From positions 1 to 64,000 of the forward strand of contig JAQUDD010000006.1 in the NCBI GenBank assembly GCA_028685875.1: DNA of 64,000 nucleotides. Reading direction: 5' to 3'. Both the position numbers and the translations under genes were made by a program. The notes under the pieces are model-generated. The model had not been told where the DNA came from. It saw only the letters and a list, made by a program, of their open reading frames with translations, and did no database searches. This DNA is from Candidatus Absconditabacteria bacterium. GTDB lineage: Bacteria > Patescibacteriota > Gracilibacteria > Absconditabacterales > Absconditicoccaceae. Positions 23,293 to 62,386 of the stretch are shown piece after piece (position 1 is the first letter of the stretch; the number at the start of each line of letters is the position of its first letter).

Positions 23293-23991
23293 TTAGTTGA
23301 ACATCTGATGCAAAAACGAGAGAGATAATCTCTGATCTAGAAAATAGGGAGAAGTGGCTATTGTCACTAAAGAAGCTGAGGTAATCAGCTTTTTTATTTT
23401 TGCTAAGCTATAAGAGAGACGGTTTCCCATCTCTGGAGCTCGGAAGTCTAGATCAATATCCAAGATATACGGCATATCTGGAATACTTAGTTCATCTAAA
23501 CTATATTCCGTTAAGATCATTTTCGCTTCAGAGATCAGCTGAGACTGCAATGCAGGCTGAATAAAATTTCCCACATTACATGAGCCATTGCTAAAGTGAA
23601 AGACATGCTGAGATTGATCCGCTGAGAGAATAGCAGTAGAAAGCTGATGCTGATTCCGATTTACGTCTGAATGCTGATCGATATGTAAGACCGGAAGGAA
23701 ACTCTTCGTCTGGAGATAGTGTTGATACCAAAAAAAGAGCGCATGATTATGATTATCGAAAATATAGACCGGAGGAAGATCGGTTGTTTGAAGTTGGAGA
23801 AAATATTTGAGTCCATGAAAATATTGTATATTTTCTGAACCCCCTGAACTGCTTTGCGTCTCCTCCCCCTTTATAAGGGGGATTTTTTCAGCAAAAGCAA
23901 AATGTTGTTCTTCAATGGTGAGCTTTTCTAGGTCGGAGACTTTGATGAGGGGGGCTACTCGAAGAGGAATTTCTGGATGGACGAATTGCAT
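23293..23991 (-). CDS. UPF0489 family protein
   Basis: A 232-residue protein resembling UPF0489, a family of unknown function. Conserved features are DNHNHALFFW, VLHIDQHSDV and YILDIDLDFRAPE, a pattern of His and Asp residues like that of arginase-type metal sites; a metal-dependent hydrolase fold is plausible. Residues about 36-53 (KGEETQSSSGGSENIQYF) coincide with a palindromic repeat in the DNA (TCCCCCTTTATAAGGGGGA) and look like an in-frame insertion. About 175 bases upstream, up to cysS, hold no gene. No in-frame TGA. Confidence 0.75.
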   Translation of the reverse strand: MQFVHPEIPLRVAPLIKVSDLEKLTIEEQHFAFAEKIPLIKGEETQSSSGGSENIQYFHGLKYFLQLQTTDLPPVYIFDNHNHALFFWYQHYLQTKSFLPVLHIDQHSDVNRNQHQLSTAILSADQSQHVFHFSNGSCNVGNFIQPALQSQLISEAKMILTEYSLDELSIPDMPYILDIDLDFRAPEMGNRLSYSLAKIKKLITSASLVTIATSPYFLDQRLSLSFLHQMFN

Positions 23992-24162
23992 ATTTGCATC
24001 AGTATTTTGGAGAAAGAATCATGGGTAGTAGTTTTTCATATTCTGATTATAGCTATTTTTGGAAAGGATGGAAGAGTTTTCGTTTAATTAAAGAGGAATG
24101 TATTTGAAATATGCCCCTATTTTACTACTATCATTTCTAAGAGCTTTATTTAAAGTTTTTTC

Positions 24163-34053: not shown

Positions 34054-34441
34054 ATTGTATTATTTTTTTCTTCTTCATACTTTTTCTTCTTCATACTTTT
34101 TGATGACCCCAAAAAGTATGCAAAAAGGGTTTTCGAGATTTCAATAATGCTTAAGGCTTGCTGGTTATTGGAAGGGAAGATAGTAAAGCTCCTCGTTTCC
34201 CACTTCGTGGGTTCCCTGCTCGGAGCTTAGGGGTGGCTTGTTTTTTCTAGATTTGCTACGGATGCAAATCGTGAAATCTCGGGGTAGTCAATTACATCTG
34301 GGTGCTAAGCAATTTTTTATTCAGGCACCCGGGTGGTGACGGGTTGTCATGTTGAGCGAAGCGCTGCGCCCCGCACAAAGCTGCGGGGAAGAATCCAGAA
34401 ATAGGCTACTTCACATGCACTGGATCCTTCATTACATTCAG
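34054..34441. repeat. Spacer with palindromic repeat elements
   Basis: No gene seen. The stretch holds CCCACTTCGTGGG near 34199-34211. A composite element runs from about 34315 to 34440, with CCCCGCACAAAGCTGCGGGG and, on either side, pieces of the recurring motif GTCAT..TGAGCGAAGCG...GAATCCAG. Related sequences occur at 38.3, 39.4 and 43.8 kb. Confidence 0.6.
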
Positions 34442-34744
34442 GATGACTTTTGTTGATTACTTTGCACTTCTCATGAGCATGAGCCATACTCGTTGCCTGA
34501 GTTCATTTCTTTGTTCTGGAGTATCAATCTGGGTCATATTCAAAACTTAGAATATCTCTATCTTCTTTTAATGAATGATATCATAGAAAGAATTTCTTCT
34601 CCACAGTATCTTTGAATTGCTAAAATAAAGTCTTTATCTGAATACTTTGAAAAAATACATAGATCTTATATGTCTTATAAATCAGGAATTACTGGGGCTA
34701 CTATAAAAACTGAATATATAGTACTTCCTAGAATTGTTTTTTAG
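34442..34744 (+). pseudogene. Orphan 3' fragment of an unrecognised gene
   Basis: A frame without TAA or TAG runs about 100 codons from the edge of the repeat element to TAG 34742-34744, with two TGAs read as Gly. Its translation is protein-like (for example EPYSLPEFISLFWSINLGHI, later SYKSGITGATIKTEYIVLP), but no plausible start is visible. It may be the tail of a gene cut by the repeat. I do not recognise the family with confidence. Confidence 0.35.
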
Positions 34745-39394: not shown

Positions 39395-39562
39395 ATGCTT
39401 TCTCCTCATCTTGAGGCCTGTGAAGGATCCAATGGCTGCAAACTGGATTCTTCGTTTCACTCAGAATGACGGCTATGTCATCTTGAGCTTGCGAAGGATC
39501 TAGATATAGGAAGAGCTGGATTCTTCGTTACGCCTTGCTCCACTCAGAATGACGAATTATTG
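39395..39562. repeat. Tandem copies of the GGATTCTTCG...CAGAATGACG repeat
   Basis: Two copies of CTGGATTCTTCGTT followed by a CACTCAGAATGACG end, and the inverted partner GTCATCTTGAGCTTGCGAAGG, lie between holA and the next gene. The same unit occurs inside elp3. No gene seen in 39383-39639. Confidence 0.7.
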
Positions 39563-42511: not shown

Positions 42512-44599
42512 ATGGATTTTTTTGTGCCTTTAGTGTATCAAATACTTTCTGAACTTCCTGATATTGATGCAGAGAGACTCAAAGCTTTGCAGAGACGTTT
42601 TTCCAAAGAACACAACCTGCGTACGCTTCCGAGTAAATCTCAGCTGCTTCAGGCTTATTTTTCTCTTGTTGACCAAAAAAAGATAGCAAAACATCCTGAT
42701 TTTGAGACTTTACTCAAAAAGAGGGCTATTCGTTCCCTTTCTGGTATTGTGTCTGTTCAGGTGCTTACTAAGCCACGAATGTGTCCAGCGTCTTGTATCT
42801 TCTGTCCCAATGATCCCACGATGCCCAAGAGTTATATTAAATCTGAACCGGGGGCAATGAGAGCTTTTCTCAATCAATTTGATCCGATCAAGCAAACCTA
42901 CAATAGATTGCAGTCTCTTACTCTTACCTGACATAATCCAGAAAAGATTGAGATGATCGTTCTTGGGGGTTCTCGAGATGCTTATCCTATGGACTATAAA
43001 ACAGATTTCATCAAGTCTCTCTATGATGCGTGTAATACCTTTTCTCAGCTTGAGATTAGAATGAAAAATCAGACTTCTTCTCTTCTTTCTTCAGAAGAAT
43101 CTAAATATGGCTTTGACGTTCTCAATACGCCAGAAATTCACTTTTCTTCAAGCTTAGAGGAAGCAATAGAAAATAATCAGACTGCAAAGCATAGAATCAT
43201 CGGACTTACGATAGAGACGCGTCCTGATCTGGTTACTCATAAGAACTGTCAATCTCGAAGAGAGCTGGGCGTGACGAGGGTAGAAATGGGAGTGCAATCA
43301 AGTGATGATGAGATTTTGGAGATGAATAAAAGAGGGCATGGGATTCAGAAAGTTAAAGAGGCGATGCATCTGATGCGTCAATATGGGTTCAAAATTTCTC
43401 TTCACTTGATGCCAGGGCTCTATGGTTCGACGGTAGCAAAAGATATTCAGACGTTTGCTGATGTTTTTTCTGATCCGTATTTTAAACCTGATGAGCTCAA
43501 GGTGTATCCTACTTCCGTCATCCCTGATACTGAGTTATATACACTGTATCAACAGGGGAAATATACGCCTATTACGAGTGAAGAAATTCTCCAAATTATT
43601 CGTGAAATCTTTCAGCATATTATTCCGCCCTATACGAGGATTAAAAGGCTGATTCGTGATATTCCTGCAACAGAGATTGCAGCGGGTTCTTCGATTACCA
43701 ATCTTTCTCAGCTTGCACATACGAGTTTGTTGAAAGAATATAGAGAGGCGCTGGACGTTCCCCTTATGAAGGGGGGAAGCGAAGCGGGGGATTCGAGACA
43801 CAGACTGGATTCTTCGCTTCGCTCAGAATGACAAACTGTTGAGGAACAAGGCGATAAATTGGATTGCCACGCCTTCGGCTCGCAATGACAAAAAGTTGAA
43901 ATGAATATTTTGTCATTCTGAAAGAGTGAAGCGATTGAGGAGTCCAGAAGTGATAAATTGGATTTTTCACTGCGCTCAGAATGACTATCTAGGAAGCAGG
44001 AAGTAGAGCACTTTTACACCCGTCTCTATGGGAAGTATCAGCTTTTTTCTGCTGAGGAATTTTCTGATTTTTCTTTACCAAATACTCCTTCTTCATCAGA
44101 AACGCAGACCTTTATTTTTTGAGAGAAGCCTGACCTGAAGTGATTTCGTCATTTCGTTTCTCTGGACACGAGGTCGAGAGAGGTGAGAAATAAGAAAGAA
44201 CAAACAAAATATCTCAATCTTGTAATTAGAAAGTATCAGAGCTCTGTTGGTCAGGAGTATTTCATCTCTTATGAAGATGAGCTGGGATATCTTTATGGAT
44301 TTACTAGGTTACTTCTTCCGTCTGCTGAACATATTCTTGAGTATCCTTGATTAGGTGCGGCTACGGCAATCATTAGAGAATTACATGTGTATGGAGAGCT
44401 TCAAAAAATTGGGGAGAAGTCGAATTCTGCGACTCAACATTCTTGACTGGGAAAAAAATTACTTCAGGTGGCAGAACACTTGGCAAAGAAAGCTGATTTT
44501 TCTCATATCTCTGTGATTTCTGGAGTGGGAGTGAGGGCGTATTATTTCAAACATGGCTATGCGTTGGAGGGTACCTATGTCAAAAAAGTACTCCTATAA
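42512..44599 (+). CDS. Elp3-family radical SAM/GNAT tRNA-modifying enzyme
   Basis: A 695-residue Elp3-like protein, which uses a radical SAM [4Fe-4S] cluster and acetyl-CoA to build the cm5U modification at tRNA wobble uridine. Cys 91, 95 and 98 (CPASCIFCP) form the cluster site. Conserved IIGLTIETRPD, GVTRVEMGVQS, MPGLYGST and RIKRLIRDIPATEIAAGS follow. The C-terminal acetyltransferase shows IRELHVYGEL, QHS-(TGA)-LGKKLLQVAEHLA and VISGVGVRAYY; the TGA at 44444 is at a conserved Gly. Residues about 415-491 are encoded by repeat DNA inserted in frame. The Cys cluster before REVR is replaced by FRHFVSLDTRSREVR. Confidence 0.9.
43758..43985 (+). repeat. Palindromic repeat cluster inside elp3, in frame
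   Basis: TTCCCCTTATGAAGGGG is followed by three to four units of the GGATTCTTCG...CTCAGAATGAC family in both orientations (for example 43809-43832, 43916-43945 and 43954-43985), the same as in the 39.4 kb spacer. The whole block keeps the elp3 frame, with four TGAs (43829, 43886, 43919 and 43982) read as Gly. No TAA or TAG occurs in that frame. Confidence 0.75.
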
Positions 44600-44734: not shown

Positions 44735-47700
44735 ATGAAGAAGTATATAGCTATTTTAATGACGTTTCTTTTGTGTTTTCAACACGTTCTGTTTCCTGTT
44801 ATTGCTGAGGAAGAGTTTATTTTTATGATTGCAGGAGATTTAGTGCAGTCCACAGAAGATTGAAATGGTATTATAGAAGATTGAGAGGAGATAAGTGAGG
44901 AAGAGATAAATGAAGAAGAGATAAATGAAGAAGAAATAAATGAAGAAGAAACAAGTGAGGAGGAAACAACTGAAGAAGAGATAAATGAAGAAGAGATAAA
45001 TGAAGAAGAAATAAGTGAAGAAGAAACAAGTGAGGAGGAAACAACTGAAGAAGAAATAAGTGAGGAAGAAATAGATGGGGAAGGAACAACTGAGGAAGAA
45101 ATAGATGGGGAAGGAACAACTGAGGAAGAAATAGATGGGGAAGGAACAACTGAGGAAGAAACAGGTGAAGGAGAAACAACAGCAGAGAACGAAGAAACAC
45201 TTCTTTTGGAAGAACTGGATGATATGTACCTCTCTCTTTCTTCTCTTAGTGGGTCGGACCTTTTCATTACGACTTGGCAGACGACTACTGCAAATGAAAG
45301 TATCAGTATCCCGACAGTAGGTGGGGGCTATAATTTTGAGATTGACTGGTGAGATGGAAGTACGGGAAGTTATCAATGAACTGCACCCGTGGTATCTCAT
45401 ACCTATGGAGAACTAGGAATTCATACGGTAATGATTCGTGGGCTGTTCCCAAGAATCTATTTTAACAATACTTGAGATAAGGATAAAATTTTAACGGTGG
45501 AGCAGTGGGGAGATATTGAATGGACGAGTATGGAGGGTGCCTTTTATGGAGCGAGTAATCTTGCAGTGTTAGCGACTGATGCTCCGCAGTTTAATACGGT
45601 ATCTACGATTAGTTTTTCTAATATGTTTCGTTGAGCTACGAATTTAACGGGAAACTTTAACCATTGGGATACGAGCAAAGTGATTAGTATGGGATGGATG
45701 TTTCAATGAGCGACGAATTTCAACCAGCCAGTAGGGAGTTGGGATACGAATAGTGTTACGAATATGTGGTATATGTTTTACTGAGCAACTTCTTTCAATC
45801 AAGCGATCGGGAATTGGGACACGAGCAAAGTGACGAATATGTCGTATATGTTTCAATGAGCGACGAATTTCAATCAGCCGTTGAGTGGTTGGAATACGAG
45901 TAAAGTGACCACCATGCAGAATATGTTTTATAATGCAAATAGCTTCAATCAGTCTTTGAGTGGTTGGGATACGAGTCAGGTGATGAGTATGGGATGGATG
46001 TTTCAATGAGCGACGAATTTCAATCAGCCGCTAAGTGGTTGGAATACGAGTAAAGTGACCACCATGCAGAATATGTTTTATCAAGCAAGCAACTTTAATC
46101 AAGATATTAGAAATTGGGATACGAGCAATGTGATAAGTATGGTGGAGGTGTTTCGTTGAGCGACTACCTTTAATCAGAACATAGGAGATTGGAACATCAG
46201 TAAAGTAACGAATATGAACAATATGTTTCGTGGGGCCACTGCTTTCAATGGAGCAGTCTGATCATGGGATACGAGTCAGGTGACGAATATGGGAGAGGTA
46301 TTTAATTGAGCAAGTAGTTTTAATCAAGATATTTCAAGTTGGGATACGAGTAAAGTGACGAATATGGGACGGATGTTTCAAGGGGCAAGTAGTTTTAATC
46401 AAGATATTTCAAGTTGGGATACGAGTAAAGTGACGAATATGGGACGGATGTTTAATGGAGCCATGAACTTCAATCAATCGTTAAGTGGATGGGATGTGAG
46501 TAGTGTGACTAGTATGACACAGATGTTTAATTGAGTACACCTCTCAACCTATAACTATAATGCAATTCTGGATGGTCGAAGTCAGCAAGGAGTAAGAAGC
46601 TGAGTGAGTTTCCACGGAGGAAACTCGAAGTATGGAGGCTGTGAAGTGAATGCTCAGCAGGGAATTGCAGGAAGAGCACTTCTTCAGAGTAAGGGATGGA
46701 CGATCACTTTTGATGGCTGAATTGAGGCCTGTTTCTGGCCCTTTGTCACGACCTGGCAGACCACTATGGCAAATGAAAGTGTCACGATTCCGACTATAGG
46801 AGCAGGATATGATTTTACCATTGACTGGTGAGATGGAAGTACAGGAAGTTATCAGGGAACTGCACCTGTAGTGTCTCATACTTATACTGAACTAGGAGTG
46901 TATACGGTAAAGATTAGTGGATTGTTTCCAAGAATCTATTTTAATAATACTTGAGATAAGGGTAAAATCTTGACGGTAGAGCAGCGGGGAGATATTGAAT
47001 GGAGGAGTATGATTGGTGCCTTTTATGGGGCCAGTAATTTAGCTGTCTTGGCGACTGATGCTCCGAAGTTTACTACGGTATCTAGTGTCAGCCTTCAATA
47101 TATGTTTTCTGATGCGACGAATTTGACGGGAAACTTTAACCATTGGGATACGAGCAAAGTAACGAGTATGGGTACGATGTTTGCAGGAGCAAGTAATTTT
47201 AATCAGCCTTTAAGTGGATGGGATACGAGTCAGGTAACGATTATGGGTAATATGTTTCGTGATGCAACTGCCTTCAATCAATCGTTGAGTTGATGGAATA
47301 CGAGCAAAGTGACAAATATGGAGGGTATGTTTAATGGAGCAAGTAGTTTCAATCAATCGTTGAGTTGATGGGATACGAGCAAGGTAATTACTATGGGTAC
47401 CATGTTTCGTCAGGCTAGTGCTTTCAATGGAGAAATCTGATCGTGGGATACGAGCAGTGTGACGAATATGGATAGAATGTTTACTAGTGCAAGCAACTTC
47501 AATCAGCCAATCGGGAATTGGGATACGAGCAAAGTGACGACTATGGCATATATGTTTCAATGAGCAACTACTTTTGATCAAGACCTCTCTTCACGAAGTG
47601 TGACAGGAGTGACGAATATGAACGATATGTTCCGTTATGTAAACCTTTCCACCTATAACTATAATGCTCTTCTAGATGGTCGAAGTAAGCAGGAAGTAAA

Positions 47701-50700
47701 AAGTTGAGTGAGTTTCCACGGAGGAACTTCCAAATATGGAGGTTGTGCGATCAATACTCAGCAAGGAATCGCGGGAAGAGCACTTCTTCAGAGTAAAGGA
47801 CGGACGATTAGTGATGGAGGAGAAGAAGGATGTGTCAGGCCGTTCATCACGACTTGGCAGACGACTACCGCAAATGAAAGTATTATGATTCCGACAGTAG
47901 GTGCGGGATATACTTTTATAATTGATCGATGAGATGGAACTACGGGAAGCTATAACGGAACAGCACCGAATCCTTCGCATATCTATCTTGAATCGGGAAT
48001 CTATACGGTGCAGATTAGTGGAAGTTTCCCAAGAATCTACATCAATAATGGGACCATGAAAGATAAGATCTTGACGGTAGAGCAGCGGGGAAGTGTAGAG
48101 TGGACAAGTATGGAGGGTGCCTTTTATGGAGCGACTAATCTTGCGGTATTAGCGACGGATGCACCAAGGTTTACCACTGTACCTACCGTTAACTTTAGTT
48201 CAATGTTTGCTGGAGCAACAAATTTAACGGGAAATTTTAATCACTGGGATACGAGTCAGGTGACGAATATGCAAAGTATGTTTCAATGAGCAACGAATTT
48301 CAATCAAGCGATCGGGAATTGGGATACGAGCAAGGTGACGACTATGCAGAGTATGTTTAATGGAGTAAGTAGTTTCGATCAACCGTTAAGTGGATGGGAT
48401 ACGAGTCAGGTAACGAATATGTCTTCTATGTTTTACAATGCAAGAAGCTTCGATCAACCGATCGGGAATTGGGATACGAGTCAGGTGACGACTATGTTCA
48501 ATATGTTTTTTCAAGCAACTACTTTTGATCAAGACCTTTCTGAACGAAGGGTGACGGCAGTGACGACCATGCACGATATGTTTCGTTATGCAAAACTCTC
48601 TACTTTCAATTACAATGCGCTCCTTGATAGTCGAAGTCAGCAGGGAGTACAAAGCTGAGTATCCTTTCAAGGAGGAGGTTCGAAGTATGGGGGTTGTGCA
48701 ATCAATGCTCAGCAAGGAATCGCAGGAAGAGCACTTCTTCAGAGTAAAGGACGGACGATTAGTGATGGTGGAGAAGAAGCATGTACTCTTATTACAGGAG
48801 TTCTATCCTACTCTCCAAGTACTCTTACTAATCAGGATGTACTAGTAACCTTAACACTTAGTGCCCCTGGAACTCTTCTTTCCTCAGGTCGAAGTGGATC
48901 TGACAAAATTTTTACTAAAACATTCTCAGAGAATGTCACAGGAGAACTGGTGGAATTTAGGAATTCTTTAGGTACTACTGGAAGTGCAGTAGTAATGATA
49001 AGCTGGATAGATAAGGTAGCACCAACGGGAAGCATAGCTTATACTCCAGCTACTATTACCAATGGAAATGTAATAGCAACGTTAACTACGAGCGAAAGAA
49101 TCTGAACTCCCGCGGGATGGACGAAACTCGATGATACTACTTACATAAAAGTATTTACTGCTAACGAAAGCGGAGTAGTGCTCTTGTATGATGAAGTAGG
49201 AAACGAGGGAACGGTAAGCTATGAAATCACCTGGATTGATAAGACAGCAATAGTTTGAACCATCAACTATTCTACTACGGGAAACACGAATGAAGATGTA
49301 ACAGCAACTATTAGCTTCAATAAAACAGGGGTAACGATCACGAACAACGGAGGAAATACAAACTATACCTTCACCGGAAATGGAAGCTTCATGTTTGAGT
49401 TTATGGATGCGTATGGAAATACGGGAAGTGAAACGGCAAGTGTGACACGGATTGATAAGAGTGTTGTGATTGGAACGATTAGTTACTCAACGACAGGAAA
49501 TACGAATGAAGATGTGATAGCAACTATCACGTTCAATAAAACAGGGGTAACGATCACGAACAACGGAGGAAGCGCAAATTATACCTTCATAGGGAATGGA
49601 AGCTTTACCTTCACTTTCACTGACGCGTATGGAAATGCCGGAAGCACAACTGCAACCGTAACTTGGATTGATAAGAGTGCAGTAGTTTGAACCATCAACT
49701 ATTCAACAACAGGAAATACGAGTGAAGACGTGACAGCAAGTATTAGCTTCAATAAAACAGGAGTGATAATCACGAACAACGGAGGAAGTGCTTTCTATGT
49801 GTTCACCGGAAATGGAAGCTTCACGTTTGAATTTGAAGATGCTTATGGAAACACGGGAAGCGCAGTCGCAAGCGTGAGTTGGATCGATCAAGATCTTCCA
49901 AGCGGAACTATTAGCTATACTCCCGATACTCCTACCAATGGAACGGTTGTTGCGGTTTTGAGGACGAATAAACCCATAGTGATCCCTGATGCTTGGACGA
50001 GACTGGATCCAACCACTTATGTGAGACTTTTCGCTGAGAATGAAACGGGAACCCTTCTTTTGGAAGATCTCTTAGGAAATCAGGGAAGTGTAGAGTACGC
50101 AGTAACGTGGATTGATCGTAGTCCCGTGATCGGAACTATTACCTATTCAACGACAGAGAAGACTGTTAATCCTGTTATTGTTACCATTAGCTTCAATAAA
50201 TCTGGTGTGATTGTAGATCCTCCTTATGAAGGAGGAGAAGGTGGTTCTGGTTGGTTTTATACATTCACCGGAAACGGAAGCTTTACCTTCACCTTCAGGG
50301 ACATCTATGGAAATACGGGAAGCACAACTGCAATAGTAAGCTGGATTGAGAGTTCTCTCCCGGGAATGGGAGGTGGAGGAGGTTCAACCCTCACAAAGGA
50401 TACTTGTTCGACTAATTCTTATGATAAGCGTTGTGCTCTCCCTCCGTATATGGGACATACTTCTCCTGATGATGAAAAGGCTTGATTTTCTCCTCCTTCT
50501 GAAATTGAACCTTTGTTGCAGAAATCGGTATATGCATGGTCCTTTGAACATGGATTAACTACTAGGCCAACTCTGGAGCTTGCGAGGTTTGGTGACAGCT
50601 TAACGAGAGCAGAAGCTGCAAAGATTATTAGTGTGTATGCTACGAAATTTTTGGGTAGGGCAATAGATCCTACCAAAACTGCCTGTCTGGGATTCTCAGA

Positions 50701-60606: not shown

Positions 60607-62386
60607 ACTTCTTTCCAATTTGAATTTTTAATGTATTTAGTTCCATTTTTTCTTCATTACTCAGGTTTTGACTTTTCGTTCCTATTTTGAAGTATTCTTG
60701 GATATTGGGAGCGATCACTCTTTGGATAATTGCTTTCTTTGTTAAAGTATCTTCTACGTTATGTAATTCTTTTTCTCGTCGGAGCTGGATTTCGTTGATT
60801 TCCTCTTTTTCTGGGTCGGTAAGTTCTCCTCTGAAAACTCTCGCGAGGTAGCTTTGTGGAGTGGCGATGGTAATTTGCTTTGCGAAGGAGGTAAGCGTTT
60901 GCATGAAGTCGTCTAAGGAATCCCTCTGTCCTTCGGATATTTCCCCTTCAGAAGGGGAAAAACACTTGCTCAAAAAATTATCTTGAAAAAGCGAAGAAAA
61001 GAGGAGCTCTCTGTTTGGTTGATAATGTTCTGGTTGAGTTTGCTGTCTTTGTCTCTGTTGTTGTTTCAAAAAAATCTTTCCTTCTCCAGACTTATATTTT
61101 TGCAATTGGACATTGATGATCTCGGTAGCAAATCAGAGTTTTTCGGCTAATAGTCCTTTGTAGTGTTCTTGGATGGTCACATTCCCAACTGAGATAATTA
61201 GCTCAAACATTGCATTGATCAGCTTTTGTTTATCTATGGGGGAAGTCATATCGCTATTCGTTCTTATTTTCTCAAACATCACCAGAAACCCATCGTGCGC
61301 CTGTTCCAAAGCAGTTTCAAAAAGCTGTTTCCCATTCTCAAGATTTGCTACATCATCTATATCTTTACATCCTTCTGGTAAACTGATGATTTTTGGGAAG
61401 ATATCCTGATTGTAGCAGAGTTTCAATGCTCTAAAACTTGCCTGCTGTCCAGCTTTATCATTATCAAAGAGAAAATAGAAATTCTCGGTATGTCTTTTTA
61501 CTATTTTGATGTGTTCTTCACTGAGTGCTGTCCCACTGGTTGCTACTCCAATTGGGAAGTCAATTCTTGCAAGGGCAATCACATCCATCTGTCCTTCCAC
61601 GACGATCAGCTTTTGAAATTTGTTAATGTAGGGTTTAGCATGAGAGAGTCCATAGAGGATTTTTGACTTCTCAAAGGCTTTATGTTCCGTGCTGTTGAGA
61701 TATTTGGGTTGGTCCTCGGGATTGATGACTCTTGCACTGAATCCTACCACATTTTTCATTAGATCGTAGATGGGGAAGGTGATCCTATTTCTAAAAAATG
61801 CATAGACATCCCCGCTCAGATTTTTCTTTGCGAGGGAAGCTTGCACCATGTCTTCATCATTAAATCCCTTGTTTCTGAGATAACTGAGCAATTCATAGTG
61901 CTTATCACTAGCGTATCCTACGCCAAATTCTTTGATGATTGTAATATCTAATTTTCTGTTTTCTGTCAGATATTGCATTGCTTCGGGACTTTTCTCCAAA
62001 CTGTCCACAAAAAACTGCTGGGCAAGCTTGTGCATTCTCTTCATTTTTTCTTTTTCGTCTTTGCTATATTCTTGATAGGCAGTTGAAGTCTGATATTGTG
62101 CGATATCAATATGATTTTGCTCAGCGAGGAGTTTGACTGCGTCTCGGAAGTCTACTTTTTCACTTTCTTCTACGAACTTAAAAACATTTCCTCCTATTCC
62201 ACATCCAAAGCATTTGAAGATCTGCTTCTGAGGAGAAACCATAAAGGAAGGCGTTTTTTCATTATGAAAGGGACAGCAACCGGAAAGATTGCTCCCTGAC
62301 CTCTTGAGAGGGACATATCTCGAGATGACATCTACGATATCTACGCGGGAGAGAATTTCATCTATTATTGAATTGTTTACTGCCAT
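60605..62386 (-). CDS. dnaG: DNA primase
   Basis: A 593-residue bacterial primase laying RNA primers at the replication fork. The N-terminal zinc finger uses Cys 38, His 41, Cys 59 and Cys 62 (CPFHNEKTPSF and KCFGCG). The polymerase core includes VGFSARVINPEDQPKYLNS, and the TOPRIM domain has VVEGQMDVIALA and YFLFDNDKAGQQA. A TGA at about 61133 is read as Gly and joins the C-terminal helicase-interacting region. That region contains SPSEGEISEGQRDSLDDF, encoded by a palindromic repeat element in frame. Confidence 0.95.
60919..60965 (-). repeat. Palindromic element inside dnaG
   Basis: GGAATCCCTCTGTCCTTCGG, then ATTTCCCCTTCAGAAGGGGAAA. It keeps the frame of dnaG and resembles the elements at 36.85 and 62.75 kb. 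Confidence 0.65.

Follow-up and report, generated by a model that had tools for sequence, protein, structure and literature searches.

The elp3 gene described here raises the question of how 228 bases of intergenic-type repeats can lie in frame inside a protein-coding sequence, and whether a genetic code in which UGA means Gly has anything to do with it. The window, a stretch of 64,000 nucleotides, belongs to a Candidatus Absconditabacteria genome (G000) of 1.03 Mb that is 99% complete and held in 16 contigs of a metagenome-type assembly. The product of 42512-44599 matches TIGR01211 with 479 bits, contains radical SAM and Radical_SAM_C domains in NCBIfam and Pfam scans, and matches solved Elp3 proteins; it is the only elp3 copy found in the genome. 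The gene and the parts of its insert are as follows.

42512-44599, + strand: elp3, radical SAM/GNAT enzyme, 695 aa, table 25, nine in-frame TGA
43758-43985, + strand: composite repeat insert, in frame, 228 nt (76 codons), missing from relatives
43760-43795, + strand: C-type hairpin end CCCCTTATGAAGGGGGGAAGCGAAGCGGGGGATTCG, read PLMKGGSEAGDS, the same end type as in the RimO DUF559 element of G000
43806-43833, - strand: CGTC-tagged REP of type A, tag on the complementary strand, read LDSSLRSE-TGA-Q
43859-43890, - strand: CGTC-tagged REP of type B, read LDCHAFGSQ-TGA-Q
43911-43946, + strand: type A REP in opposite orientation, pairing with 43806-43833, read ILSF-TGA-KSEA
43959-43985, - strand: type A REP unit, read LDFSLRSE-TGA

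The insert occupies codons 416-491, between Radical_SAM_C and the GNAT half, and has TGAs at codons 440, 459, 470, and 491 (43829, 43886, 43919, 43982) with no TAA or TAG in frame. The first-pass annotation, which had placed 228 bases of repeat units in frame between the radical SAM and acetyltransferase halves and counted four TGAs, was accurate on both points; five more TGAs lie outside the insert, so elp3 requires code 25 regardless of it. The units are also repeats genome-wide, since the 228-mer has 119 blast matches in the 1.03 Mb genome, but they do not form one family. Judged by its letters, the insert is several elements joined rather than a single repeat family: one hairpin end of a C element comes first, followed by CGTC-tagged REP units, at least four of them, in the order A, B, inverted A, A. 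It folds into a single nested hairpin (-84.3 kcal/mol, z -5.9), and 0 of 200 shuffles were as good.

A units have the letters TGTCATyCTGA...GGATCCA, and the related B units TGTCATTGCGAG...GCAATCCA; a YGTC tag is present in nearly all of the 64 type A and most of the 17 type B units. Their consensus, TGTC-ATTGCGAGCGAAGCGTGGCAAT-CCA, has a stem that begins with AT and closes ahead of an unpaired CCA tail. A terminal CGTC or YGTC tag (TGTC and CCTC being frequent forms), an AT-first stem, and a CCA tail define the REP superfamily described by Di Nocera et al. (2013, PMC3733652), two families of which are RPE-4 and RPE-6 of Rickettsia conorii. By tag, predicted stem, and tail, the A and B units are CGTC-tagged REPs of this RPE-4/RPE-6 superfamily, and the likeness to Rickettsia palindromic elements drawn in the first-pass annotation holds at that level. 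REP pairs are tag-facing in 6 cases, tail-facing in 11, and direct in 13. C units are GC-rich hairpin ends, CCCCCTTATGAAGGGGG...AGGGGGTTCG, and in the full form, of ~92 nt, an inverted copy lies opposite. Intergenic clusters of REPs occur twice in the window.

34362-34447, no strand assigned: intergenic CGTC-REP cluster
39437-39553, no strand assigned: intergenic CGTC-REP cluster

Elsewhere in G000, contig C11 carries long intergenic REP arrays with a spacing of ~96 nt (L098:5622-6637 and L098:14013-15462).

Does the altered code matter to such insertions? An intergenic A unit has on average 3.76 of its six frames open under code 11 and 5.66 under code 25 (41 distinct units); for B units the means are 4.50 and 5.58 (12 units). 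Eight of the nine A units inside genes of G000 are read in TGA-dependent frames, with seven in the LDSSLRSE-TGA-Q frame. A second sample, made up of sites from 14 other code-25 genomes chosen regardless of coding status, gave 8 of 10 TGA-dependent in-gene A units. Both samples together have 16 of 19, against ~34% expected (p ~8e-6, a rough value because it treats units as independent and REP units within one gene are linked). The TGA-bearing REP frames are therefore those chiefly found in genes, and they are open because UGA means Gly; as the favoured frame is closed under code 11 in 95% of type A copies, its use depends on the code, even should hydrophilicity lie behind the preference. On the other hand, insertion may proceed alike everywhere, with recoding irrelevant and the TGA frame used only for its hydrophilicity. 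The favoured A-unit frame does read as hydrophilic, and in-frame cases exist in code-11 relatives, which have fewer REPs and one clear in-gene case (AroE by eye, L200) that is TGA-free. REP coding share likewise shows no clear difference, at 12/94 in code 25 and 1-2/17 in code 11, where the sample is small (17 sites). Because the frame would be closed in code 11 for 95% of A copies, we consider this alternative unlikely, if still worth weighing. Recoding is not required, since code-11 relatives too have repeats and DUF559 elements in frame; as far as frame counts can tell, it is permissive, widening the choice of frames and shaping those used, and is not a precondition. The first-pass idea that recoding makes more repeat orientations tolerable as coding sequence is thus supported for the REPs by the added open frames and their use, and is limited by the code-11 cases and by the C-type part of the elp3 insert, which has one frame free of TGA.

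Mapping of the units across the genome, a check proposed in the first-pass annotation, covered 784 kb and 634 modelled genes, with the remaining 23% of the genome searched by blast only; genes were modelled with our own codon-usage caller, and surface repeat proteins were removed from the insertion count. These 784 kb of G000 contain ~29 insertions in ~24 conserved ordinary or housekeeping genes. Hosts assigned by NCBIfam are the synthetases LeuRS, MetRS, ArgRS, and LysRS, as well as UvrB, MnmA, RimO, RlmD, a RluA-family synthase, PrmC, CCA nucleotidyltransferase, TrhP, MurB, MurD, MurF, HemW, and ComF; ClpB/C and a MiaB-like gene are named by eye only. The sole LeuRS of G000 carries three C elements and one DUF559 element. 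Most REP units lie outside genes (12/94 inside), and 29 of 33 C clusters lie inside, near the genome coding fraction of 0.85, a few of them in surface proteins. One in-frame C-type element is in the window.

23837-23883, - strand: C-type element in frame in a UPF0489 gene (23296-24039, - strand), read IPLIKGEETQSSSGGS

Weaker C-type matches were seen at 50217-50247, within a BspA-like surface protein gene, and at 60934-60957, within the gene 60608-62242.

The dispersal of these insertions bears on whether elp3 is a decaying pseudogene or its insert an assembly error. A metagenome-type assembly in 16 contigs makes such a fault conceivable, but the frame is unbroken over 695 codons and the invariant Elp3 residues are kept in the protein alignment, the same phenomenon occurs in single-copy LeuRS and other essential genes, and similar in-frame insertions are found in independent assemblies; we regard this explanation as very improbable. 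Other relatives have different repeats, or DUF559, at the Elp3 linker or in the MnmA loop. Because hosts such as LeuRS are single-copy and essential, the products of genes with inserts are probably made and working. In MnmA, the loop after GHYAR is an insertion hot spot, with DUF559 elements in four genomes and REP units in G000 and G003 (loci L069, L070, L078, L089; L113:14336-15514; L230).

Some of these insertions bring a whole nuclease domain. G000 has two copies of DUF559, both within genes, RimO and LeuRS (L065, G000 C11:57302-57610; L086, G000 C11:17680-17991), and both are in-frame domains with palindromic terminal inverted repeats. In relatives, in-frame DUF559 is found in Elp3 (G006; code-11 G030, L341, and L314) and, with hosts named by eye, in MnmA (G009, G021, G023, G037), a Mur ligase (G001), Fmt (G019), LeuRS (G024, at the position seen in G000), RibE (code-11 G040 and G310), and TsaC (code-11 G233). 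The two riboflavin synthase copies (L090 in G040, L218 in G310) share one position in two code-11 genomes, and the code-11 Patescibacteria Elp3 copies (L341, L314; L066 in G030) occupy two sites, both unlike the SR1 linker. About 9 of 30 DUF559 copies in the code-25 family are in genes, against 4 verified among well over 100 in code-11 relatives, a comparison that is indicative only, resting on frame lengths read by eye and a Fisher test on hand-entered counts.

Most in-gene DUF559 copies have terminal inverted repeats on both sides, tipped with hairpins; these often far exceed what shuffled sequences give, but are weak in a few cases. The ends of the RimO element match the short C elements, which have these terminal inverted repeats in common with it, as is expected of a MITE family. 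The C elements thus appear to be short, non-autonomous relatives of an element with a DUF559 nuclease, and this element may be their autonomous partner. DUF559 identity tracks repeat-end type (Mantel r 0.43, p 0.0016, from few sequences and with phylogeny uncontrolled), and the RimO and LeuRS copies of the same genome are unlike in both DUF559 sequence and end type. Among solved proteins, the DUF559 profile is nearest to 3hrl (3e-32) and 3r3p (1.7e-5), the latter listed in its PDB entry as a mobile intron protein. The catalytic-type residues E, ExDGxxH, and D are invariant. We take 3r3p to be I-Bth0305I, the type member of the EDxHD homing family. This distant kinship with an intron-encoded homing nuclease is what would favour removal of the insert by RNA or protein splicing, as an intron or intein, but six DUF559-bearing loci gave no Rfam match, Pfam and NCBIfam scans gave no intein domain, and the frame runs open from end to end, something that would not be required of an intron; splicing is therefore hardly credible here. 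No target-site duplication was recognised by eye for the C family; relatives are too diverged for a comparison of the DNA. Site-specific DUF559 homing lineages were considered and set aside, as copies in the same host gene have 0.35-0.54 identity, not above the mean of 0.42 for others. As movers of the repeats, two candidates were likewise rejected: no RAYT or Y1 transposase (PF01797) was found in G000, and no REP unit adjoins any examined DUF559 locus, which speaks against DUF559 as mover of CGTC REPs.

The insertion itself is best seen by comparison with relatives, which are those in the collection named SR1, Absconditabacteria, Absconditabacterales, or Gracilibacteria, including RAAC1_SR1_1, and are mostly metagenome bins. 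Elp3 was present in 37 of the 41 genomes searched. A search for an empty site, also proposed in the first-pass annotation, was positive: the site is empty in the same-genus G003, G004, G005, and G007 and the same-family G019 and G020. Elp3 of the nearest species align to about residue 413 and again from 495-499, and the protein alignment has a gap of ~80 columns at the insert in all other Elp3 sequences. Linker length differs between relatives; G003 and G009 have other REP-encoded peptides in the same linker, G006 has a whole DUF559 domain there, and G023 has a PPPNPLPSKERG repeat slightly downstream of the site. AlphaFold models both flanking halves of Elp3 with high confidence, and 421-486 is the only long segment with pLDDT <50. 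A native, lineage-specific Elp3 domain or linker, to which variable linker length would lend some colour, has next to no probability. Empty sites and dispersal refute it: relatives without the 76 residues match on both sides, copies of the DNA units lie within unrelated genes and between them, and the model has no fold at the insert.

We therefore favour, with considerable confidence, the reading that the stretch is selfish palindromic DNA within an elp3 that still works, with its usable frames widened by UGA as Gly. Palindromic DNA would have entered the flexible linker after the species split from its same-genus relatives, and would now be translated as a disordered loop of ~76 residues. Both kinds of element, C and CGTC-REP, appear to have spread through the genome, and their mobility is suggested by the empty sites together with the dispersal. 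Copies in genes would persist where the surface loop of the host is tolerant, where their length causes no frameshift, and where they are read in an open, hydrophilic frame, presumably under selection for such frames; reading UGA as Gly would open the TGA-bearing REP frames (LDSSLRSE-G-Q and its partner strand). DUF559 may nick or cut DNA and in this way move both its own ends and the short C copies.

Several features have counterparts in known systems. Published CGTC REPs are mostly intergenic, mostly head-to-head dimers, listed from five phyla, and have no dedicated transposase known; some lie in frame in uvrB, tRNA synthetase, and pseudouridine synthase genes (PMC3733652). The units here are alike in tag, stem, tail, mostly intergenic location, and in-frame repair, tRNA-modification, and synthetase hosts, including uvrB. 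They differ in that their host is a code-25 Patescibacterium, outside those five phyla, in-gene type A units are mostly in TGA-bearing frames that the standard code closes, and one copy has a C-type end joined to it. Rickettsia palindromic elements, the longer RPE-1 type among them (Ogata 2000, 2002; summary in PMC10969869), are likewise selfish palindromes that lie in frame within a range of unrelated housekeeping genes. The same pattern is found here, with an empty site for elp3; in contrast, TGA as Gly opens more frames here and the C part has a relative that carries a nuclease. With the EDxHD homing endonuclease I-Bth0305I (PMC3943268) and the Vsr-like DUF559 protein VsrA (PMC12907096), the domain, a putative nuclease, shares a profile relation and invariant catalytic-type residues; unlike EDxHD homing endonucleases, DUF559 here is a short single domain, flanked by palindromic terminal inverted repeats and inserted in frame, and neither an intron nor an intein was found. 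RAYT/REP and other MITE systems also combine short palindromic elements with a possible autonomous partner with matching ends, whereas in G000, which lacks RAYT, the candidate partner is the DUF559 nuclease, for C ends only.

More tentatively, and with slightly more doubt than belief, we suggest that Patescibacteria have a class of selfish element in which an EDxHD/Vsr-like DUF559 nuclease between palindromic terminal inverted repeats inserts in frame and unspliced in conserved loops of essential genes and spawns short nuclease-less copies, and that recoding widened the frames for these and for CGTC REPs in UGA=Gly lineages. Such a DUF559-palindrome class was not found in the literature searched; searches linking DUF559 with palindromes, repeats, or mobility returned nothing relevant, and full-text searches for the repeat letters returned unrelated papers only. 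The findings tie a change of genetic code to how far proteins tolerate selfish DNA, and frame counts in recoded and standard genomes can test this link. Coding palindromes of the Rickettsia type now extend to recoded Patescibacteria, with four aminoacyl-tRNA synthetases and UvrB hit, and DUF559 is a candidate autonomous partner for one palindromic-repeat group previously without one. For the annotation of such recoded genomes, there is a practical warning here. In the window, a Glu/Thr-rich tandem repeat at 44870-45190 is near the start of a BspA-like surface protein of 2138 codons, and paralogues of this protein elsewhere in G000 have similar repeats.
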